A stretch of 64,000 bases of DNA, from assembly GCA_902806565.1 (NCBI GenBank), contig CADCXA010000034.1, positions 682,001 through 746,000 on the forward strand, given 5' to 3'. This document shows positions 3,640 through 25,020 of this stretch, one piece after another. A model generated the notes under the pieces. It searched no databases. It was not told the DNA's origin and saw only the letters and a list, made by a program, of their open reading frames with translations. The stretch comes from Hypoxylon rubiginosum (taxonomy: Eukaryota > Ascomycota > Sordariomycetes > Xylariales > Hypoxylaceae). Position numbers and translations under genes: made by a program. Within the stretch, counting starts at the first letter, position 1. Each line of letters opens with the position of its first letter.

Positions 3640-4432
3640 TACATATAAAAGTTAAGCAACTATATTAATAGGGATTTGTAATCTGTTAAAAGCCTTAAAG
3701 AAGTTTTAAGTAAAACTTTAAATAAAACTTTAAGTAAGCTTTAAATAAGTTTTATATATAAGTAATTTTTTTAATAACTTTTTTAATAATTTTTTTAGTA
3801 ACTTTTTTAGTAAGTTTATTACTTAAAAAATATCTTATATAAGGCTTATTTTAATTATAAAGTTTAATAAAATTTATTTTTATAATAAAAACTAATAAAA
3901 AATTAAATATTATTAAATTAATTATTATTTTAAATAATAAACCTTATATAATAAAATAACAGTAGTTTTTTATATATATATTTAATTATAATTTTATAAT
4001 TAAATGGTAAAAATTATTATATATATATTTAAATTTTATATATATATTTAAAATAATATATTTTTTATATTTAATAAATATATTTAATTTAATTATAATT
4101 AAATAATAATATAAATATATATTAAAATAATATAATTATTTAATTTTTAATTTTTATTATAAAATTATTTAAGTAATTTTATAATTTTATATAAACCTTA
4201 TTTAAAAATTATAACCCTTATAAAAATTATAAGTTTTATTTTAAAATAAATTTTTTAAAACTTTTTTTAAAACTTTTTAATTTTTATATAAAATTTATTT
4301 ATTAATAAATAAAAATTATATAATATAAACTTATATATTTATAAGTTTTATATAAAACTTAATTAAAGTTTTTAATAAATTATAAATTTTTTTTAATATA
4401 TTTTAAAATAAAATATTTAATATAAGTTATTA

Positions 4433-4760
4433 TTAATATTATATAATTTAATTTAAATAACTTATTAAATTAAAAAAACCTATAATTATAAATCTTAATA
4501 AATTTATATTTTATATATTAATATATAAGTTAATTAAAATTAAATAAATAAAAATAACTTAAATTAAAATAATAAAATTAATATATATTAATTAAATATT
4601 TAAAATAATAATAAAATAAAAATTAAATAATAATTTTAAAATATAAATAAGGCCTTAAATTTTTATTAAAATTAAAAAAAATTAAGAACCTTAAAATTTA
4701 TAAAAATTATTATATTAAATTAAAATTATTTTAAGTTTTTAATATAAATTTTTATTATAA
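4433..4760. repeat. Left LTR of the RIP-mutated retrotransposon
   Basis: It matches 11075-11402 base for base except at 13 sites: 4475, 4479, 4480, 4494, 4529, 4558, 4598, 4627, 4630, 4653, 4654, 4686 and 4690. All 13 are transitions (C/T or A/G), with no transversion or indel. The two copies were therefore identical at insertion and have diverged only through the mutation class RIP produces. The ends cannot be set to the exact base because TG..CA would now read TA..TA. Confidence 0.88.
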
Positions 4761-7700
4761 ATAATTTTTATTTTTTTTTAAAATTATATTAAACTTAAAT
4801 AATTAATAAAAATTTTTAAAATATTAAATATTTTAAAACTTTTTTACTTTAAATTAATTATTTTATAAATTTTTTTAATAATTTAAATTTTTTTTTTTAA
4901 CTAATAATATTTTTTTATTATTATTAAAAAATATTTTTTTTAAAATAACTTATATTATTATTTTAATATAATTTTTTTATAATTTAATATTATTATTATT
5001 TTTATTAATAATTTTATTATATTTTACTTTAAAATTATTAAATTAAAAAAAACTTATTTTATTTCTTAAAAAATTTAAATTTAAAATCTTTTAATTAATT
5101 AACTTTTTATATAAATAATATTAATAAAAATTTCTTTTATTTTTTTTTTATTAAAAATTTAAAAGATTTTTTATTAGATTTAATATTTTTTTTATTATTT
5201 AAAAATTTATTAAAATAAAAATAATATCTTAGTTTAAAAGCCTAGCTTTTATATTTTATTAATTTTAAAATTATAAATTAATTATAAGAAATATTTTTAA
5301 TTTTATTATATTTAATATTATTATTATTAATTTTTTAAAATAAATTTTATAATTTTATATTTAAATATAAAACTTTTATAATATTATTTAAATTTTAATT
5401 ATTTAAATAAATATTACTTATTAAAAGAATTAAAAAATTTATAAAAATTATAATATTTTTTATATAATTTATAATATTATTATTTAAATATATAATATAA
5501 AAATTAAAATATTAATTATTTAAATTATTAGTTTTAAATATTAAGTTAAATAATTTAATTAAATATTTTTATAATAAATTTAAAGAATTATTATTAAATT
5601 TATAAATAATAATATTATATAATAAGTTATAATTAATAAATTAATTTAAATTACTTAAAAATAATATTTAGTTTTAAAATTATTATATATTAATTTTAAT
5701 ATTTATAAGAAAATTTAAAATAAAATTATTAAATAAGTTATTATTAAAAATTTATAAATTAATAAATTATTTATTTAAAAATATATTAACTTAGTTTAAT
5801 TAAATTAAACTTTTTAAAAATAGTTATTAAATTTTTAAGTATATATAAAAATTATTTTTATTAAGTTTATTAAATAATTAATTATTAATTAATTAATTAA
5901 TATATAATTAATATTTAAAAATATAAAAAAATAAATTATATTTAATTTTAATTTTTAATAATTAACTTAAATTAATATTATTTTTAATATTTATTTTTTA
6001 TTTATATATTTTAATTTAAAAATAAAAATAAGGAATTAATTATTTATTTAAATTTTATAAATTAACTAAGTTAAAAAAATTATTATTAATACTTAAATTT
6101 AATTTAATTTTATATAAATTAGATTTTTTATATTTAAAAAAAATAAAAAAAATAATTTATTATTTTTTTTTAATAATTTTAATAATAACCCGGATAATTT
6201 TAATAATAAAAAAAATAAACTATTATTAAAATCTTTATAAAGGCTATTATTTTTTTATATTTTATATATTAAATTAACTTTTTTAATTATATTAAAAAAT
6301 AAATTAATTTAAACGTTTAAATAATTAATTTATTTTATTTTTATTATTATTAATTTTATATATTTTAATAAGTTTATTATTTATAATAATAAGGACTTTT
6401 TTAAGTTTTAATTTTAATATTTAAAAATAAAATTATATATAAAAATATATATAAAAAGTTTTTTAAAAAACTATTATTATATTAATTAAATAAAGTTTTT
6501 ATTAATAAAAAAAACCTAAATATAATATTAATAAAAACTATAAATAATAAAATAAATAAAACTTATAAACTTTTAAATAAGTTATAAATTTACTTTAAAA
6601 AAACATTTTAAAGATTTTTTAAAAAAATATTATAATTTAAAAAAAATATTTAAATTTAAATATTATAAAAATATAATTTAATATTTTATTAAAATATTAA
6701 ATTTAAATAAGTTAATTTAATAATTTAAAATTATTTTTTAAAATTATATTATTAAAACCTTATTAAATAAAATTACTAAATTAATATATTTTTATTAAAA
6801 AGGTTTTTTAAATAGTAATAAAAAATTTATTAATATTATTTAAAAAGTTAAATAAATTTATAAAAACATGTTTATAAATTTTAATATATTAAAAAAAAAA
6901 AATTTAATTTAATAATAAAATAATTAAAATTAAATTATTAATTTTATAGTAAAAACGATTATTTTAAACTTAATTAAAATTAATCTTTAAAAAAATAAAA
7001 TTAATAAATAAATAATAATTAATTTAATTTTAAAAATAAATATTAAGTTTTTAATAAAAAAGTTTTATAAGAAATTAATTAAATAGATATTAACTAATAT
7101 AAAAAAATAAATACTTATATTAATATTATAAAAAAAATAATTATAATATTTTATTTTATTTTATAAAAAAGAATATTAATAAAAAAAAATTATTTATAAT
7201 TTTAAAAAAAATTATTTTTATAAAATATAAGTTTAATAATAATATAACACTAACTTTTATATTTATAAAAAAAATAAAAATTAATTTAATTTTAATAAAG
7301 CTTTTTTTTTTAAAAAATTATTAAAAAAAAAGATTTTAACTTAAATTTTTAAATAGTTATTTTATTATATTAATAAAAAATTAATAACTTAATAATAAAT
7401 TTATTTTAATTAAAATATAAAAATTATAATAAATTTTATTTATTAGATAATTAAAATTAAAAAAAATATATAAAATTATAAAAAATATTAATAAGTTTTT
7501 ATATTTTTTTTTAATATATTAAATTATAAATTATAAAGGGTTTTTAACTTTTAATAAATTAATTTTTAAATTATATTTTAAAAGTTAATTTATTTATAAA
7601 ATAATATTTATTTATAATAATAAAAAATATTAAATAAAAATGTTTATAAATATAAAAAATAATATATTAATTATATTTTTTTTTAAAATATATTAATAGA

Positions 7701-10700
7701 AAATTTCTATTTATAAATAATAATATTTATAATTTATAGTAAATTTTAATGTTTTAATATTTAAATAAGGAGAAAAATTTTATTTAAAAGTTTTTATATT
7801 TTAATATTAAAAAAATTATTTTATTTATTTTAACTTTAAATTTATTAATTTAAATAAAAAATATAATATTATTTTATTTTAATAATAGTTTAAATAATAT
7901 TAATTAGCTTATTTTTTTTTTTAGATTTAAAAAATTTAATTTATTTTTAAATATTATAAAAAGAATTATATTAATAAAATTTTAATAAACTTATTAGTGT
8001 TTTTTTTTATTTTAATTATAATTTAAATAAATATTTAAAAAATATTTAAAAATATTTTTAAGAAATTCTAAAAATTTTATTTAATTATAATTTAAAAAGT
8101 AAAATAATAATTTTTTAATTATTAACCTTAAAATTATATTATAGATTTTTATAAAAAAAAAGTATTTTTTTAAAAACCTTTTTATATTATAAGTAAAAAA
8201 AAATTATTTACTTTAAAGTTTTAATTAAAAAAAATAATTAATATAAAAAAAATTAAAAAATTTATTTTATTATATATTATTTTAATAATATTTATTAAAA
8301 AAATAAATTTAAAAGATTTATTATAATTTATTATTAATTATTAAAGATTTAATATTATTATTATATTAATTTATTATTTAATTTTTTTAATTATAAAACT
8401 TTAAATATAATTTAAAATTATTAAATTTTTTATTAAAATTAACTTTAAATTTAAATTTAATTTTATATAAATTAAGAAAAAAAATAAATAAAAAATAGTT
8501 TTTAAATATAAATATAATTTATATAAATATTTAATAATGTTTTTTAAACTTATTAATACCCTAGTAATTTTTTAAGTTATAATAAATAATATTTTTTAAG
8601 ATTTAATTAATATTAATATATTTATTTATTTTAATAATATTTTTATTTATAAAGATATTTAAAAGAAATATAATATTTTAATAAAAAAAGTTTTTAAATA
8701 ATTAATAAAATATTATTTAACGGTATTATTAAAAAAATATTTTTAAAAAGTTTAAAAAGTTAAATTTTTAAAATATATTATTAAAATTAATAATATATTA
8801 ATAAGTTTAAATAAAATTAAAAGTATTTAAAAGTAGGAAAATTTAATTAGTTTTAAAAAATATTAGTAATTTATAAGATTTATAAATTTTTATTAACGTT
8901 TTATTTATAATTTTTTAATAATAATTAAACCTTTAATAAATATTAATAAAAAAGATAAAAAAAATTAAAAATAAATAAAATTAATATTAATTATTTTTAA
9001 GATATTAAAAAATTAATTTATAATTATTTTAATTTTTATTTATTTTAATTTAAATTTAATTATTTATATTAAAATAAATGTTTTAGATTTTATAATAAAA
9101 TTAATTTTATTTTAAAAAAATAAAATTAGGAAATTTTATTTTATAATGTTTTATTTTTAAAAATTAAATTTAATTAAAATAAACTATAAAATTTATAATA
9201 AAAAATTATTAAATATTATTAATTTTTTTAAGAAATAAAAATAATATTTTAAAAAAGTATATTATTAAATTAAAATTTATTTTAATTATTAAAATCTTTT
9301 TTATTTTATTATTATTAAAATGTTAAATTAAAAATAAATTTAATAAGTTTAATAGTTTATTTTATATTAATTTATTATTAATTATTAATTAAAATATTTA
9401 AATAAAAAAACCGATATTTTATTTAAATTATTATAATATTATTTTAAAAAAAAAAAACTAAAAATTAATTAATTATTTTAATTTTATAAGAAAAATATTT
9501 TTTATATTTATAAGGAATTATATTTATTATTTTAATTATTATTTTATTTATATTAAAGTGATTTTATAGTTTTAAAATATTATAATAATTATTAAAATTT
9601 ATAAAGAATTTTAAAAAAGTTATATTAAAAAATCCTGTTTATTTAAAATAAAAAAACTAATTAAAAAAAATATAAAAATATAAAATAATTTATTTTATTA
9701 TAAAAACCGTTTATAAATATTAATAATTTTATAATAAAAAATTATAAAATTTAAATATAATATATATATTACTAGTTATATAAAAATAAATAAAATTATA
9801 AAATTAATTACTTATAATTTCTAGTAGTTTAATTTAAAAAATATAATTAAAAAATATATTAAAAAATATTTAAAATATTAAAAAAATAAAATTTTAAAAT
9901 ATATATTTTATAATTTTTTTTAGTTTATAAAACTTTATTATAAATTTTAATATATTATTATAATAAATTTTATTATAAATTTATTATTATTAAATAAATA
10001 TAATTTTATATAAATAATAATAAATTTTTTTATAAAAATAACTTACTTTATTTTTTTTAAAATAAAAGAAAAGAAAATTAATAATTTTATTAAAATTTTT
10101 ATTAAAAAATATTAAAAATTATATAATATATTATTAAATATTATTTTTAATAAAAACTTTAAATTTATAATATATTTATAAAAAGATTTTTTTAAATTAA
10201 TAAATATTAAATTTTATATAAATATAGCTTTTTATTTTTAAATTAATAGTTAAATTAAATAACTTAATTAAACTTTTAAAACTTATTTATAATTATTTAT
10301 TAATTATAAAATAAATAATTAAAAAAACTTATTTTTTATAATTAAATTTATTTATAATAATATAGTTTTATTTTTTTTTTATATAATATTTTTTTATATT
10401 AATTATAAATATTATTTTATAATATATAATTTTTTATTTAAAATATTTAAAAATTTAAAAAATTAATTTTATTTTTATTAAATAACTTAAATTTAAAAAA
10501 ATACCTGAAAATATTTTAAGTAAAATTAATAATAAATAAAGATTTAAATAAATAAAAAATATATTAAAAATTTTAAATATATTAAAAAATAATTAATTAT
10601 ATTAAATATTAAAAATATAAAAATAAAAAAACTTATAAAAAAGCTAGATTAAAAGATATTAAAGTTTTTTAAAATTTAAAAAGTAATTTTTTTAATTATT

Positions 10701-11074
10701 ATAAAGCTTATATTTTTTAAAAATTAAAAAATTTATAATTTATTTTATATTTTTTTTATTAAATTTTATTATATTAATAATTAAATATTATTTAACTTTA
10801 ATTAAGTTTTATAAAAAGTAGTTTTAATTAAAATAAAAAATTATTAAATAAAAAAAATAAAAAACTTTATAAAAAACTTAAAAAAAATAAAATATTTAAT
10901 TAAATAAAAAAAATAATTTATTAAAAAATATTAAACTTAAAAATCTTATAATTATTTATTTAATAAAAAAGTTAAATATTTTATTAAGAACTTTTATTAA
11001 TAATAATTAAAAAAATTTATAGATTTTTATATTTATAAAATAATATTTTAAAATAAAACTTAAAAAAAAAAATT

Positions 11075-11402
11075 TTAATATTATATAATTTAATTTAAAT
11101 AACTTATTAAATTAAAGAAATTTATAATTATAAATTTTAATAAATTTATATTTTATATATTAATATATAAATTAATTAAAATTAAATAAATAAAAATAAT
11201 TTAAATTAAAATAATAAAATTAATATATATTAATTAAATGTTTAAAATAATAATAAAATAAAAATTAAGTAGTAATTTTAAAATATAAATAAGGTTTTAA
11301 ATTTTTATTAAAATTAAAAAAAATTAAAAACTTTAAAATTTATAAAAATTATTATATTAAATTAAAATTATTTTAAGTTTTTAATATAAATTTTTATTAT
11401 AA
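11075..11402. repeat. Right LTR of the RIP-mutated retrotransposon
   Basis: This is the direct repeat of 4433-4760 (about 96 percent identical, all differences transitions). Its right end is the right border of the AT-rich block; normal base composition resumes within some 20 bases. Confidence 0.88.
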
Positions 11403-18519: not shown

Positions 18520-19461
18520 TCGAGAGGAGGCTCGAGTTTGGTCCATAGTGTTCCAATTGTTGGGTTTATATATGTATGGGTTTGGTTATACGTGCAATGC
18601 CTCCTGTATTGTGTCTACCTAGGTAGCTTTCTTCGCAGGTCCGACGTTGGGCGTGTGGTGTGTTCCCTTTGGCTTTATGGAAGATTTACAAAAACAAACC
18701 AACGAGAAATCAGATAAGAGCTTCATCCACCGCCTTGGGAGATTTGAATGTCCGAAATGTGAGTCTGATGGTCTTTTAATAAAGGGGTTACGGGATCTTC
18801 TATTAGCACGTAGCACAAGGGTCGAATAATAGCGATTTCATTTAGACGGGGAAGGTTTGGAATATAGAAAGAGAGCCGGGAGGACGGGTCATATATGTAT
18901 GTCAAGCTTCCGGCTGACCGCCTCATAACCTACCTATGTAGCTACCTTTACTACACCGGGGTAGCTACGTGTGTACCCCAACCAAGAACAGGTAGACCGA
19001 TAAGATCATCTCCAGTTTTATGTCATACAAAGGGGGGGAGACTTGGTGGTAGACGGTTCTAGATTCCCCAGATTTCCGGGTAGAGTGGGCAGATGCTAAT
19101 GAGGTCGATCGTGCGATTGGTATGCAAAACGAAAACTTTAAGGGAAGCTTGTGGATAAGGGGACTTAAAAGAAAACATTGGGGCTGCCTTTTCGGCCGGA
19201 TCAGGATAAGGGGCACGCGAGCCGGATTTGGGGTTTACACATACCAGGTAGTAGGTAAGAAGTCTGGAAGTAAGGAGGCGAAAGGAGGTAGGTACATACG
19301 TACTATGTAGGTATGTAGGTAAGAGGCAAGGGGCAAGGGGGGAATTCCCGGAAACCTACCTTACTATGTAAGCTGCGCTGCATTAGCGAAGAGGAACGAA
19401 GGCATCGGGAGTCGGATTGCTTGGGTTTATTAGGAAGCGGGGGAAAGCGGGGGTCTGGTCA
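18520..19461. other. Intergenic up to the DNA transposon
   Basis: The start should be the promoter of the small membrane-protein gene. An ACCTAGGTA word lies at 18617-18625, and purine-rich AGGTAGGTA runs lie around 19285-19345. No gene was recognised. Confidence 0.55.
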
Positions 19462-19495
19462 CCCACAGGGCTCTAATGGAAATAACTCGAATTTT
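19462..19495 (+). repeat. Left terminal inverted repeat of the DNA transposon
   Basis: 34 bp, the inverted counterpart of 24169-24202, with 30 of 34 positions identical. It opens with CCCACAGGG. Confidence 0.88.
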
Positions 19496-19951
19496 AATAC
19501 GTAAACGCCCGTGTGGGGTTGTAGATGCCACTAAGGCTATAAGGGGTTAGGTATTATCGAATAAGCAGGTGATTACATAATGGAGCAGGGGTGCAGACCT
19601 AAAAACCCCTCATTTTGCTGAGTAATAAAGAAAATTTTCTCCGTACAACCAACAAACAACAAAGGTGAGTAATTTATAATTTTAAACACTCTTTTATAAC
19701 AAAACTTTTATCTAGCAATATTACAACCAAATTATTTGTAATCTCCTCAATCTAACAAATCTAATGATTATACTTTTGGTATATAAGATTTGCAAAGATA
19801 CACGGTTATACAGGCTTGTACGACCTTGTACAGGTTTGCTTTAACGAGATGTCAATCAAACAATCTTCAAAAGGCTTGCCAAGGTGACGTTAGGTTATTT
19901 CAAGCTAGCGTAAGACTAATAATATCTTTTATAACCTACTAGGCAGTACGA
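19496..19951. other. Left subterminal and promoter region of the transposon
   Basis: Non-coding, AT-rich, with repeats of a CTTGTAC word (for example GGCTTGTACGACCTTGTACA near 19813). These could be transposase-binding sites or promoter elements for the first gene. Confidence 0.5.
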
Positions 19952-20808
19952 ATGATCCACCACTATAATCTTCGCAGCAAACCAAGTTCAGAAAGGTATG
20001 TATACCGAGGTTATTGCTTTGAAATTAAGCTAACAGAGTGAAACAGGTTTGAACAAGCTCAAACGACCATGTCAGATGACGTACTACCCTTGAGCAACTG
20101 GATTTGGGCGGGCACAGCACTCGAAAAGCCTCGTCAAGACTTTGATAACAACGATAGTTTGCAACTTACGAGTCATGCAGTTGATCAACTACGTTCGGCC
20201 GAGTATAACGACGTACGAGAGCTTATTGAGGCTGTCCCGGTTTGTATATATTTGCCTATGGTTCGTAAAATAAGAGCTAACCTCCTACAGGTTTTGCCAC
20301 GTTTAATTAAGCTCAAAGAGCTTCGAGAAAATGGACGAAAAGTTACTCCAAAGCTTAAACTCGACCGCCAGCAAAAGATGTCGGCTATCGCGGCCTTTAT
20401 AACGATCCCACAAGCAAATACAGAGTCCTGCCAGCAGTGTAAAAACAAGAAGTCACGTGGTCCTTGCTCCGAGTGTGTGGCAGGAGGGGGTCACGTGTTT
20501 AACGGGGCTTGTACAAACTGTCAATTCTCGAGTACGGCGTCTGCTTGCTCGTTTTATATTGGTAGGTTTATTACAAGCTTGTACAAGTTAAATCATGTCT
20601 AACCAAACCAGCTGCTACTGGCAAGAGTCGAAAACGGGCTAGGAAGGGCTCCTCCGAGGGAGATGAAGACGGACGCAACTTTGACCTTACCACGGAGATC
20701 CTTAAGCAACGGTCGACAGCAGAGCTGGAGATTTGGATGGGGCTGATTAAGGAAGAGATCGAGTTCCGTGAGGTCGCGATTGGTCGTGCCCACTTGCGCC
20801 GGGCCTAG
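19952..20808 (+). CDS. Transposon-borne cysteine-rich protein (DUF3716-like)
   Basis: Four exons, 19952-19995, 20047-20239, 20291-20561 and 20612-20808, join in phase to 234 residues. The second intron is exactly 51 bp, so it is invisible in a frame scan, but it has a GCTAAC branch and a CTACAG end. The middle is basic and helical. From about residue 126 the cysteine pattern runs CQQCKNKKSRGPCSEC, then FNGACTNC and a final ACSF. This resembles the fungal C-rich domain I know as DUF3716 (motif GACANC), found in many uncharacterised fungal proteins. The C-terminus is basic (GKSRKRARKG), then a charged helix. A nucleic-acid-binding accessory or regulatory protein of the element is plausible but not shown. 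Confidence 0.72.
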
Positions 20809-21124
20809 CCAAGTTTGTAGGGCTTGTAACAAGGCGTTTTTGGTGGATATAATGGTATTTTATGAGGGTTTAGCCGAGGCAAACAAGGGCACAAATGGAC
20901 AAAAATGGGAGGTTATATGGGGATCAGGTGTTAGTTTGCTTTAGTTCTCCTTAATTGCGACTAGCTTGTACTAGCTTGTTTGACTACGTTCAAACTTGCT
21001 TAGCCTGAAATCTGGACTATTTTTGTTTTTAAAGGCCTGTCTGTCCTTTGTTTATTTTATAACATTTCCCCTTTTTCACATAATCTTCATTGTGCTTGCT
21101 CGAGTCTCTACGAGCTTGTATATA

Positions 21125-22927
21125 ATGGTACGACCAATAATTGGCCTTGAGCTTCACCGCGATTTTATTATCAAACAATACCAAGACCAAGTTACGGCAC
21201 AAACAATTTGCGACGAGCTTTTAGAAGCCCACGGGACCCAAGTAACAACTCGAACCCTACGCAACAGGCTGAGACAATGGGGTATTCAATCTAATCGAGT
21301 CAAAACGACCAAATCCGAGGCTTTGTCAGCTCGTCTACGTGAGCTCTTTTTTGAATTGGGATTAGACGACCAACAACTCCACCAACGGCTACTCGATGAA
21401 GGCTTCACTATATCCCATACAGGAGTTAAAACCCTTCGACGTTCCCTCAATATCTATCGACGATTAAACCCCGATACCTTTGGCGACCGTATACAAGAGC
21501 TACGAGAGTTCTTCGAAGACGAGCGTTATACCGACAATATTGTAAGACGTATGGGCTGTCGGATGTTATACGTACATATGCGTCAAAGACAGATAAATGT
21601 ATCGCGAACACCTATGTTTGCTGTATTCTCAAGTCTGTACTCGAAGGAGATTAAACAACGAACACGCAAGCTTAATCGACGCCGTGGTGGCTGGACTACA
21701 CCCGGGCCGAACTACACCTGGTCTGTAGACGCCTACTGCAAACTTGAGCCCTACGGATTCGAGGTTTATGCCGGTATTGACGCCTACGCGCGATATATCA
21801 CGTGGTTTTATTGTGGTGTATCAGCTCGTACAGCCCGATCCGTCTTCACTCAATACGTGGATGTTGTGGGACAATGGGGATATATACCCCTAGTTATTCG
21901 TTCAGATCGAGGCAATGAACTAGGACTCATGACCGCTGCTCATTATTATTTGTCACAGGATACACAAGCAAGCAGGCACCCCCGAGTATATCCCACAAAC
22001 CACCTCAGCCCTGCGCAGACTCGTACAAGCTCGAACAATCCTACACCAGCGTTAGACGAGCAAACAAATCTACATACTTTTGCCGACAATATATATTTGT
22101 CGTCACACTCACCTGGACAAATTCGAATCGATCAGATACCCGCTGGTCCACTACGACTTCGTGATTGCTTGTCATACGGCAAGAGCACAGCTAACCAGAG
22201 GATCGAGAGCTGGTGGTCGAGGCTTTGTGATGGTCGGTCTATTTTTTGGCGTGTAAGTTCACTTATAACAAACCTTTCTTGTCCTTTGCAAGCCAGCCTT
22301 GGCCTGAGCAAACCTGTACTAACTTGTTCAAAGGAGTACTTCGGCAACCTGGCTTCTCAGCGGTTGTGGGAGCGATACTGTCTACCGGACGAGATTGCGT
22401 TGCTGTATGTTTATATGCCTATAATTCGATACGAGCTTGCTCAGTTTGTTCGAGTCTGGAATGCCCATTACATACGTAAGCAATCTAATCGGCCTCATGT
22501 CGTACACGGCAAACCTTGGGTGTTATATAACATGTCCGATCCAAATAAGGCAGTCGATTGCCGTGTTCCATTAAATAGGGACAAGTGGGATAAACTTCAC
22601 GCTCTATCTCAATTGGATAATATCGACCTCGATCAATACCTACCCGCGGATACTATGGATGTTTGCAAAGGCATTTTGGACGAGATAGGTGGTATACCAG
22701 ATCGATTCGAGGAGGGCTGTGAGGATACACCATATATACAGCAATACTTTCATCTACGACAAGGCTTAAACAAGCACATATCCCTAGGAAGAGAGCCTCA
22801 AGTATCGAAGCTTGCTCGAACGGACGGCGGTTGGGAGCACTTTCAAACACTTATGCAAGAAGCAAACATTGACTTAGAAGAGCTAACAGAAATAACATCA
22901 GACGACGAGGTTGACGATAGGGCTTAG
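21125..22927 (+). CDS. DDE transposase with integrase core domain
   Basis: The ATG at 21125 starts MVRPIIGLELHRDF. Residues about 1-55 look like a helix-turn-helix DNA-binding region. The catalytic core follows: first Asp in YTWSVDAYCKLEPY (D202), second Asp in LVIRSDRGNE (D261) and Glu in STANQRIESWW (E361 if unspliced). An in-frame intron at 22253-22333 (GTAAGT donor, CTAACTTGTTCAAAG end, 81 bp) is very likely. A second, 21986-22135 (150 bp), is possible and would shorten the D-to-E spacing from 99 to 49 residues, nearer the rve-fold norm; the product would then be 523 residues. The acidic C-terminus ends ITSDDEVDDRA. This is the enzyme that would cut and join the element's ends. All three catalytic residues are present. 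Confidence 0.85.
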   Translation: MVRPIIGLELHRDFIIKQYQDQVTAQTICDELLEAHGTQVTTRTLRNRLRQWGIQSNRVKTTKSEALSARLRELFFELGLDDQQLHQRLLDEGFTISHTGVKTLRRSLNIYRRLNPDTFGDRIQELREFFEDERYTDNIVRRMGCRMLYVHMRQRQINVSRTPMFAVFSSLYSKEIKQRTRKLNRRRGGWTTPGPNYTWSVDAYCKLEPYGFEVYAGIDAYARYITWFYCGVSARTARSVFTQYVDVVGQWGYIPLVIRSDRGNELGLMTAAHYYLSQDTQASRHPRVYPTNHLSPAQTRTSSNNPTPALDEQTNLHTFADNIYLSSHSPGQIRIDQIPAGPLRLRDCLSYGKSTANQRIESWWSRLCDGRSIFWRVSSLITNLSCPLQASLGLSKPVLTCSKEYFGNLASQRLWERYCLPDEIALLYVYMPIIRYELAQFVRVWNAHYIRKQSNRPHVVHGKPWVLYNMSDPNKAVDCRVPLNRDKWDKLHALSQLDNIDLDQYLPADTMDVCKGILDEIGGIPDRFEEGCEDTPYIQQYFHLRQGLNKHISLGREPQVSKLARTDGGWEHFQTLMQEANIDLEELTEITSDDEVDDRA

Positions 22928-22951
22928 GGTGGTTTGCGCAAACCCGTACAA

Positions 22952-23965
22952 TCAAGCCTCTTTCTCGTACTCCTCCGTTCGAACTCGTTTGCGACTGGTG
23001 GCCCGAGTCCCATACGTTGAGGGCGCTGCCAGATTGCCTTGGCCTCGGGGAGTCGGCTCACGTTTAATCTCAGTATCCTCCTCCTTGATCTCCTCCTTTT
23101 TCACCTTAATCTCCTTTGTTTGAGCCCTTCCTTGCCTTGGCTTTCTTGCTGTTTTGCCTGTTTGCCCCTGCTCAAGACCAGGCTGAGCTGTCTTTTTTCG
23201 TCCTACAGCGTTGTTTTTTTTGGCAAGCACCTGTTCAAGGTCTGGGAGGTCGCTCTCATCCCCGCTAAGCTGGTCATCCTTGTCCAAGCCTGTTAGGTCT
23301 GCTACGACCTTGTTCGAGTACAGATTGAGATAGTGGGACTCGTCGTTACCCCCCCCTACTTTGATTGAGTATTCGGCAAGTACAGTTGCAATTGTACAGG
23401 GTTGATTGTGGTCGAGGCTCAGTGTAGCGGCCTGTTTGCCATTGCCTAGGGTGACAGCACCCACAAACCTCCACTCCTTCTCACTGTGCCGAGTCTGGCC
23501 AAACTTGTCGAGCAAGAAATTGATGAGTTCTTTGCAGTTGTCATACGTTGGAGTGTTTATGAGCATTTTTGTGGCTTGCCCAACCTCGATTCGAGCAAGC
23601 TTTACCAGTTGCGTCTCTGGATGACCGTGTAAAAGTATACGGTGAGAGTCTCCGAGGTATAAATATATACCAATCTTCGCCGTAATGGGCTTAACAGGTT
23701 TGCGGTCGCGTGTTGCGCTTGTCTCTCGAGCGTCCTTGGACATCTCGTAGCATGCCTTGAACCCAAGTGATTGGCTCGAGTTTGGGACAATCAACGCCGG
23801 GGTAGTGCGAGATAGCTGACTATTGGGAATGTTTGTTGTCGTTTGTACGCGCTCGGGGGAGTCCGTAGTGAGGTCGATGACGGCATGCCCGGATGCGTTT
23901 GCAGGTAACTCCCTATGACAAGCTCCGCAAGTAAGACAGTGACCTGGTGGTGCTGGGTGACTCAT
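22952..23965 (-). CDS. Third gene of the DNA transposon, unknown function
   Basis: A single-exon frame of 337 residues from the ATG at 23965 (MSHPAPPGHCLTCGACHREL). The start has a CxxCGxC-like cysteine cluster. A central globular part (about residues 110-240) includes the block IGIYLYLGDSHRILLHGHPE. The C-terminal third is lysine/glutamate-rich and repetitive (VKKEEIKEEDTEIKREPT) with nuclear-localisation-like basic runs. Its stop is 24 bp from the transposase stop, in convergent orientation, inside the inverted repeats, so it belongs to the element. I do not recognise the family. It may help the transposase bind DNA or target chromatin; that is speculation from its composition. Confidence 0.7.
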   Translation of the reverse strand: MSHPAPPGHCLTCGACHRELPANASGHAVIDLTTDSPERVQTTTNIPNSQLSRTTPALIVPNSSQSLGFKACYEMSKDARETSATRDRKPVKPITAKIGIYLYLGDSHRILLHGHPETQLVKLARIEVGQATKMLINTPTYDNCKELINFLLDKFGQTRHSEKEWRFVGAVTLGNGKQAATLSLDHNQPCTIATVLAEYSIKVGGGNDESHYLNLYSNKVVADLTGLDKDDQLSGDESDLPDLEQVLAKKNNAVGRKKTAQPGLEQGQTGKTARKPRQGRAQTKEIKVKKEEIKEEDTEIKREPTPRGQGNLAAPSTYGTRATSRKRVRTEEYEKEA

Positions 23966-24168
23966 TGTGAATGATAGTTTTGCTTCAAAAAAGTGTTGAT
24001 AAATCTGTAGAAGCTTGTACAAGTAAAAATAGGATTGTGTGGGCTTTTATAAGCGAGTATGTACGTTTAATTGTAAGCTCAGGTTTGTTTAATCCCTAAT
24101 ATCACCTTATGAAATATGTGCATTTAAAGTGTACTACTTTTCATACTATGGGCGTGGGTGTATAAGTA

Positions 24169-24202
24169 AAAATTCGAGTTATTTCCGTTAAACCCCTGTG
24201 GG
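24169..24202 (-). repeat. Right terminal inverted repeat of the DNA transposon
   Basis: 34 bp, the inverted counterpart of 19462-19495. It ends CCCTGTGGG on the plus strand. Confidence 0.88.
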
Positions 24203-25020
24203 ACACCGTACGGGGGGTAGCCGAAACCCAAACAGCCCTGGCAGCCCAAACTTCAGTGTCTAAGTGTTAGTACATATATAAAAAAAAGACACACAAGACA
24301 CACAAACCCCTGTTTAGGTGATACCATTTGCATAGTAATGAAAACAAAACAAAAATACGGATTGTTAGAATTGTCAGACAGCAGACAGATATTAGACCAG
24401 GTTGGATGATTCACCAAAATGCATCATCGGTTTTCCGCATCGAAAAACAAAGAAAAAAGAGTCACAGAACCTACATCACCCAGGCTCACAGGCTCGTAAG
24501 CTCGCTCGATCCTGACTAGGATCATACCAGCCAATGACGAGCAGAGCGACGACAATGTGCCTCCCATCCTACCATCGTGGCTGAAGAGGCGCAGTGACAA
24601 CAGCGTACCTAAGGCTCCAGATAGGTACTGAGTAGGCTGGTAGGCCAGATAGATGATAGGCACGCCCAGGTCTGATTTGCCACCCCGTACCAAATACCGA
24701 GATACATGCAACCTATCTATGCAAATCTATGCAATCTATGCAAGGTTGCAAGTTGGATATATGCGCGTTTGCATGTGAGGCACCGCGCCCGCATCAGTCA
24801 GAATCAGAATGATTGAAGGCAGCAGTTGGCTTCAGCCTTGTCGTCCCTTCAACCTCTCTCCTTCTGCCTGCTATAGGCATCTTTTTCTATTTTCAAATAA
24901 TCTAGCTTCAACCGTCTTTGTCTCATTCAACTACTATTCACGCAGCTAGTCATCCTTCTCGAGATCAGCTTGAATTCACAGTCCGTGTCTACATTAAAAA
25001 CAGATAACCTTCCGTTGGCC
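24203..25020. other. Intergenic between transposon and BTB-like gene
   Basis: No gene was recognised. The last 200 bases are CT-rich (CTTCAACCTCTCTCCTTCTG near 24847) as in many fungal core promoters and should be the promoter and leader of the next gene. Confidence 0.55.

Follow-up and report, generated by a model that had tools for sequence, protein, structure and literature searches.

Complete IS3EU transposons are described as always having TA..TA termini, with target-site duplications of usually 6 bp, and the related GingerRoot ends are mostly TA..TA and occasionally TG..CA (PMC10045372). The TET+ IS3EU elements of rust fungi have terminal inverted repeats (TIRs) of more than 30 bp ending in TAYGG..CCRTA and contain an alpha-kinase gene (PMC12730594). 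Styx of Zymoseptoria is 7.9 kb long, with four open reading frames (ORFs), a 36-bp TIR and 6-bp duplications, and its transposase was linked to IS3EU by its authors (PMC10853768). IS3EU content is also reported for Colletotrichum lupini (PMC11645255). In Arabidopsis, the protein VANC21 binds YAGTATTAY motifs that are dense in the transposon VANDAL21 (PMC5735166). Here we analyse a 64,000-nucleotide stretch of Hypoxylon rubiginosum DNA (contig CADCXA010000034.1, positions 682,001 to 746,000 of the forward strand; the window), which holds a three-gene element at positions 19454..24210. With a probability of about 0.92 we regard this element as a TIR DNA transposon of the IS3EU/GingerRoot type that is autonomous and has been active recently, and whose accessory proteins are probably helpers.

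Ends and copies of the element

An initial annotation of the window had proposed a cut-and-paste transposon with ends at 19462 and 24202 and 34-bp TIRs. The matching inverted ends with an 18-base shared core (GGAAATAACTCGAATTTT) are indeed present, but the proposed ends are 8 bp short on each side. The true ends are 19454 and 24210, because the 6-bp duplications of both intact copies and of most derivatives abut them. The TIRs measure 42 bp and form an imperfect inverted repeat, with 35 of 42 bases identical and 7 mismatches. At its outer limits the element reads TCTGGTCA (left) and ACACCGTA (right).

19454..24210, plus strand: whole element, 4757 bp, TCTGGTCACCCACAGGG...CCCTGTGGGACACCGTA; delimited by an identical C51 copy with other flanks, by duplications abutting these ends and by the same ends in derivatives
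19448..19453: left target-site duplication, CGGGGG
24211..24216: right target-site duplication, CGGGGG
19454..19495, plus strand: left TIR, 42 bp, also in derivatives
24169..24210, minus strand: right TIR, 42 bp, also in derivatives

Further copies were sought by DNA search of the source genome (48.3 Mb, 70 contigs), and all copy counts are lower bounds. Besides the window copy there are at least one intact full-length copy, one full-length copy altered by repeat-induced point mutation (RIP), one truncated copy, 11 shorter derivatives and, on C56, one old, decayed relic of a DUF3716 gene. The intact copy (C51:197347-202087) is identical to the window copy over 4741 bp (19462..24202). Brought into one orientation, both extend leftward into TCTGGTCA and rightward into ACACCGTA before they diverge, the C51 copy being flanked on both sides by CACATC and the window copy by CGGGGG. 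The 1.5-kb flanks on each side of the two copies share no homology beyond chance matches of 11-13 bp.

The third full-length copy (L048 558-5315; C6:456557-461314, minus strand, approximate) covers 4757 aligned positions and differs from the intact element by 1965 C-to-T or G-to-A changes, with 3 transversions and a single inserted base besides. Altogether 1966 of its 2158 C/G positions are altered (91%), in every dinucleotide context (83-100%), and its GC content is about 5% compared with 45% in the intact element. This is near-saturating RIP on a copy that has otherwise hardly diverged, and it illustrates the reach of RIP in this genome, where 91% of all C/G positions can change within a very short divergence. 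We had considered the C6 copy as a divergent second family, as the protein identity is only 31-36%; this idea was dropped, since the base-by-base comparison identifies it as the same element with C-to-T and G-to-A changes.

The truncated copy shares 95% identity with the element over about 1.27 kb and retains its left end along with an intact DUF3716 gene; its right end was not found, and it is without a transposase.

L044 1469-2766 (C25:2051268-2052565): truncated copy

Both ends were examined in 14 copies, namely the 2 intact, the RIP-mutated full-length and the 11 derivative copies. The 6-bp duplications are perfect in 8 of these and differ only by C/T or G/A changes in 4 (L040, L042, L043 and the C6 copy, L048); none was found in L041 or in L037, whose right end is mutated away. 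When the truncated C25 copy is included, TCTGG forms the left end of 11 of 15 copies and the other four have RIP-mutated forms of it (TT); therefore, TC is a fixed 5' feature of the family. The right end reads CCGTA in 12 of 14 copies, with one RIP-mutated form and one end lost.

Eight of the 11 derivatives are 813-843 bp long, and three of 1131, 1749 and 3016 bp have additional internal sequence. Their matched ends span about 53-64 bp on the left and 62-97 bp on the right, some mutated ends being without a match; for L037, L039, L040 and L043, which have mutated ends, one boundary was taken from the alignment and not from an exact match. What the clean derivative L046 has in common with the element is limited to the outermost 64 bp (left) and 63 bp (right). 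Heavy RIP is seen in 8 of 11 derivatives (GC 4-13%), and 3 of 11 are clean (GC 37%). In the RIP-mutated L036, L038 and L042 (6-12% GC as a whole) the terminal 20 bp at both ends are unmutated or nearly so, as if mutation fades at the edges of the repeat. Derivative L045 (1081-1895) has, inward of its right terminal 8 bp, the sequence of the left end (GAGCCCTGTGGG), as though part of one TIR had been transferred to the other by copying.

The identical copy at an unrelated locus with its own duplication, the RIP-mutated third copy and the 11 derivatives show that the element is a young, repeatedly mobilised cut-and-paste DNA transposon. The genome search suggested in the initial annotation for copies with the same TIRs thus yielded a second intact copy, a RIP-mutated copy and 11 derivatives, and its transposon proposal is supported by the copies at independent loci with 6-bp duplications together with the rva_4 core and the predicted integrase fold of the transposase. 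Neither of the two outcomes named as contradicting it, a lack of other copies or a joint occurrence of the three genes at conserved non-repetitive positions, was found.

Coding capacity

All three genes of the initial annotation are present. It had treated them as open, which holds for ORF3, a single frame, but we read the DUF3716 gene with two introns and the transposase gene with one. The models were derived from reading frame and alignment.

20069..20808, plus strand: DUF3716 gene, 212 aa; exons 20069-20239, 20291-20561 and 20612-20808, two introns
21125..22927, plus strand: transposase gene, 573 aa; exons 21125-22252 and 22334-22927, one intron; triad D202, D261, E361; Clr5 helix-turn-helix (HTH) at residues 9-55
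22952..23965, minus strand: ORF3, 337 aa, single exon, convergent; Lys/Glu-rich C terminus, VIDLT motif, three psi-K-x-E motifs

Profile searches, also suggested in the initial annotation, found rva_4 (PF24764, E 4.8e-19) and Clr5 (PF14420, E 3.1e-6) in the transposase. A zinc-binding (HHCC) integrase domain is not among its Pfam matches at E≤1. The complete D-D-E set noted earlier is invariant across 45 aligned transposase sequences; 99 residues separate D261 from E361, a long insertion before the catalytic E. An AlphaFold2 model of the protein (mean predicted local distance difference test score, pLDDT, 82) has a helical N terminus, and a fold search with it, read together with the alignment, predicts an integrase-type (RNase-H) fold bearing D, D and E. 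A profile search of the PDB with a 15-sequence transposase alignment gave weak matches only (E 0.11 or worse), several of them to HTH domains. Xylaria, Fusarium and Colletotrichum are among the best named homologues, which together with RIP and the introns would fit a filamentous ascomycete as host. A divergent rva_4 transposase-like gene with open exons lies on C1 (L073 3128-4836; ~78.6-80.3 kb). Within 9 kb of it we recognised neither TIRs nor a DUF3716 or ORF3 partner, and the gene is either a relic or domesticated.

The first protein is cysteine-rich, as had been noted, with a conserved cysteine pattern and a match to DUF3716 (PF12511, E 1.7e-7). Its exon joins follow from the reading frame and from alignment with a gene model of Seiridium cupressi (P0017), where a DUF3716 region is followed by a transposase of the rva_4 type; intron 1 falls at a gap position of this alignment. 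The homology spans residues 8-193 of 212 (27% identity) and thus extends beyond the short Pfam domain, and such a joint model is found for 1 of the 45 homologues. In the C25 copy the frame and splice signals are intact, and between the window and C25 copies coding sequence has diverged about 3-fold less than noncoding sequence (13/636 versus 43/672; Fisher p 1e-4). Nonsynonymous and synonymous changes per site are 0.016 and 0.034, from only 8 and 5 changes, which in this small sample points to purifying selection on the gene. The domain matches at 16 places in the genome, three of them in copies of the element, with no stops inside the matches. The open-access literature searched does not mention DUF3716 by name; its accession PF12511 occurs there in one paper. 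Because of the conserved cysteine pattern, the pairing with a transposase in another genus and the apparent constraint, the DUF3716 protein is most likely a DNA-binding partner of the transposase, a candidate regulator or transpososome cofactor. The element offers a testable setting for DUF3716, a Pfam family of unknown function.

The frame of ORF3 is intact in both full copies. As the initial annotation had stated, it is a convergent Lys/Glu-rich protein of no known family. No relatives were found at E≤1e-3 with the whole protein or at E≤5 with residues 70-240, in a search blind to relatives that share no exact 5-residue words and to unannotated genes, so that ORF3 is provisionally an orphan. 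Pfam gave nothing usable (weak RA and DUF3181 matches below the cut-off), nor did a PDB search by sequence (best E 0.09). The VIDLT and psi-K-x-E motifs presumably hint at a link to SUMO, which we treat as a lead only, since such motifs arise easily in a Lys/Glu-rich protein. No like case of SUMO or accessory proteins in fungal transposons was recognised in open-access titles and abstract openings. We propose that ORF3 is probably a nuclear accessory protein.

Dispersed palindromic motif

Short words around GCTTGTAC are over-represented in the element, and a palindrome is dispersed along it.

19807..24021: dispersed 16-bp palindrome TGTACAAGCTTGTACA; sites with at most 3 mismatches start at 19807, 19817, 20570, 21107, 21817, 22022, 22315 and 24006

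Against these eight sites, 200 dinucleotide shuffles gave 0.035 on average and never more than 2, and the remaining 59 kb of the window contains a single site. As the motif was learnt from the element itself, best-seed, train/test, genome-count and phasing controls were added. The best seeds of the element reach counts of 14 (10-mers, 1 mismatch) and 18 (12-mers, 2 mismatches), and in 40 shuffles the counts peak at 7 and 8; higher counts than the element's are reached in 4 (10-mers) and 5 (12-mers) of 12 other window segments of equal length, where the seeds are A/T runs or short-period repeats. When the motif was learnt on the left 1.65 kb, the top four seeds had 17-26 matches with at most 2 mismatches in the rest, counts never reached in 200 shuffles (means about 3, maxima 8-12). 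Genome-wide there are 25 matches with at most 2 mismatches, 8 of them in element copies, and the reversed control gives 15; elsewhere in the genome the palindrome is near background.

Between successive sites with at most 5 mismatches, 7 of 20 gaps are exactly 10 bp, approximately one helical turn. The motif overlaps itself at 10 bp, and a control in which the nine best sites were kept and the rest shuffled gave a mean of 1.4 and a maximum of 4 such gaps in 500 runs. Of 30 half-sites, 12 are exonic and the other 18 fall in introns or noncoding DNA, including 6 upstream of the DUF3716 gene, 3 in intron 2, 4 between the DUF3716 and transposase genes and 3 near the right end. The three clean derivatives have 2-4 half-sites (at most 2 mismatches) per ~0.8 kb, and the C56 relic retains one palindrome site at a position aligning with intron 2. 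The TIR core word ACTCGAA has 5 internal copies, where scaling from the rest of the window gives 0.47; among the 12 TIR 7-mers checked, no other is as extreme. Judged by sequence, the palindromes look like putative sites for a dimeric protein, for which the DUF3716 protein is the best candidate binder.

Genomic setting

The insertion point is not crossed by any long open frame. Six flanking frames were scanned; one was without a match, and five match core-type genes, namely a TRPY1/YVC1-type channel, a Scc2/Nipped-B-like cohesin loader, a calcineurin-like phosphatase, KRR1 and a DUF383/DUF384 protein. At positions 4001-11200 of the window lies a block of about 7 kb whose GC content is 3-5%, probably another RIP-saturated repeat.

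Discussion

For the transposition process we infer binding partners and accessory roles as follows. The 573-aa transposase would bind the 42-bp TIRs via its N-terminal HTH region, and its RNase-H-fold active site of D202, D261 and E361 would cut both element ends. Joining of the ends to the target strands with a 6-bp stagger would leave the 6-bp duplications. The derivatives, mostly of ~0.8 kb and retaining the ends only, would be mobilised in trans by the same transposase. The DUF3716 protein would most likely act as a DNA-binding partner, with the palindromes as candidate sites, and ORF3 probably as a nuclear accessory protein.

Several points weigh against this reading. The element is known from one assembly, where its intact copies number only two. 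Derivative L041 has no recognisable 6-bp duplication, and L037 has lost its right end. The accessory roles are deduced from domain names, from a single pairing of genes and from the statistics of the motif; moreover, 13 of the 16 DUF3716 matches lie outside element copies, so that the domain is not specific to the element, and the single-sequence model of ORF3 is too poor to use (mean pLDDT 40).

The idea of a domesticated cluster of host genes, with inverted repeats on either side by chance, finds some parallel in the lone divergent transposase-like gene on C1, for which no TIRs were found, but it is refuted by the identical copy elsewhere, the 6-bp duplications, the mutated third copy and the derivatives with the same ends, and we give it practically no credence. 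The element could also be a plain IS3EU member in which the 5' terminal TA has drifted to TC, with DUF3716 and ORF3 as passengers without a role in transposition. The 6-bp duplications, the CCGTA 3' end, the long TIRs and the rve-type core would fit published IS3EU elements, and several genes are present in the rust IS3EU elements and in Styx as well. However, the DUF3716 gene looks constrained and is paired with a transposase in another genus, unlike a random passenger, and the left end is TCTGG in all copies but the four RIP-mutated ones, so that TC is fixed in the family. We therefore consider this explanation rather unlikely.

The palindromes may serve regulation, transpososome assembly or anti-silencing. 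They might be internal transposase or DUF3716 sites for transpososome assembly, or autoregulatory operators near promoters, a suggestion which we hold tentatively and at somewhat less than even odds. It agrees with the 16 of 30 half-sites located upstream of DUF3716, in intron 2, between genes and near the right end, and with the internal recurrence of ACTCGAA; on the other hand, 12 half-sites are exonic, and the clean derivatives have transposed with few sites, from which the palindromes seem unneeded in cis for mobility. By analogy with VANC in VANDAL, DUF3716 and/or ORF3 might instead form an element-encoded anti-silencing system acting via the palindromes. The motif is dense in the element and near background elsewhere, as for VANC21 targets (PMC5735166), and the host mutates copies of the family heavily, yet two full copies and three derivatives are clean. 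The clean copies may, however, simply be too young for RIP, the three clean derivatives carry few sites, and the RIP-saturated full-length copy, with the same sites before it was mutated, went unprotected. In addition, VANC motifs are arranged in one orientation and mainly in noncoding DNA, whereas those of the element are palindromic and partly exonic. On this evidence an anti-silencing system is doubtful. Its specific form, in which DUF3716 (or ORF3) would be a dimeric DNA-binding factor on 10-bp-phased palindromes that protects or activates its own copies against host silencing, is a long shot; if true, it would be a fungal counterpart of VANC, independently evolved in an integrase-type transposon. 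No like case of sequence-specific anti-silencing in fungal transposons was recognised in open-access titles and abstract openings.

Comparison with known systems

With retroviral integrase, TnsB, IstA and MuA the relation is limited to the DDE fold, and the transposase of the element has an N-terminal HTH region and a long insertion before the catalytic E. VANDAL elements belong to the MULE superfamily, unlike the element described here. Both have a dense, element-specific short DNA motif and genes other than the transposase; the one-orientation, mainly noncoding arrays of VANDAL differ from palindromes with 12 of 30 half-sites in exons, and binding by a protein has been demonstrated there, while the motif of the element is known from motif statistics. 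Styx, compared here by description only, is likewise fungal, multi-gene, RIP-exposed and recently active, with an IS3EU-assigned transposase and 6-bp duplications. It differs in its length of 7.9 kb and in its partners, which are GATA, CCHC and DUF3577 proteins.

With IS3EU and GingerRoot the element shares 6-bp duplications, TIRs of more than 30 bp (42 bp here), an integrase-type DDE core in which no HHCC domain was found, and the possibility of extra genes in fungal members. The gene content had been called unusual in the initial annotation; DUF3716 and an orphan protein do differ from the TET and alpha-kinase partners of the rust elements, but multi-gene fungal elements of IS3EU type are already in print, so that this content is not new in kind. 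What the element adds are exact ends, duplications, gene models and graded copies (intact, RIP-saturated and non-autonomous) for a fungal IS3EU-like transposon, and it is a candidate case for asking what accessory or helper genes do in such transposons. The suggested IS3EU kinship is supported by the 6-bp duplications, the rva_4 core and the predicted fold. Strict membership fails at the 5' terminal dinucleotide, TC instead of the TA of TA..TA. Compared with TAYGG..CCRTA, a pattern described for rust families only, the 3' end CCGTA fits and the left end TCTGG deviates in 2 of 5 bases. We therefore call the element IS3EU-like, as its mode of working is that of IS3EU whereas its 5' end is TC.

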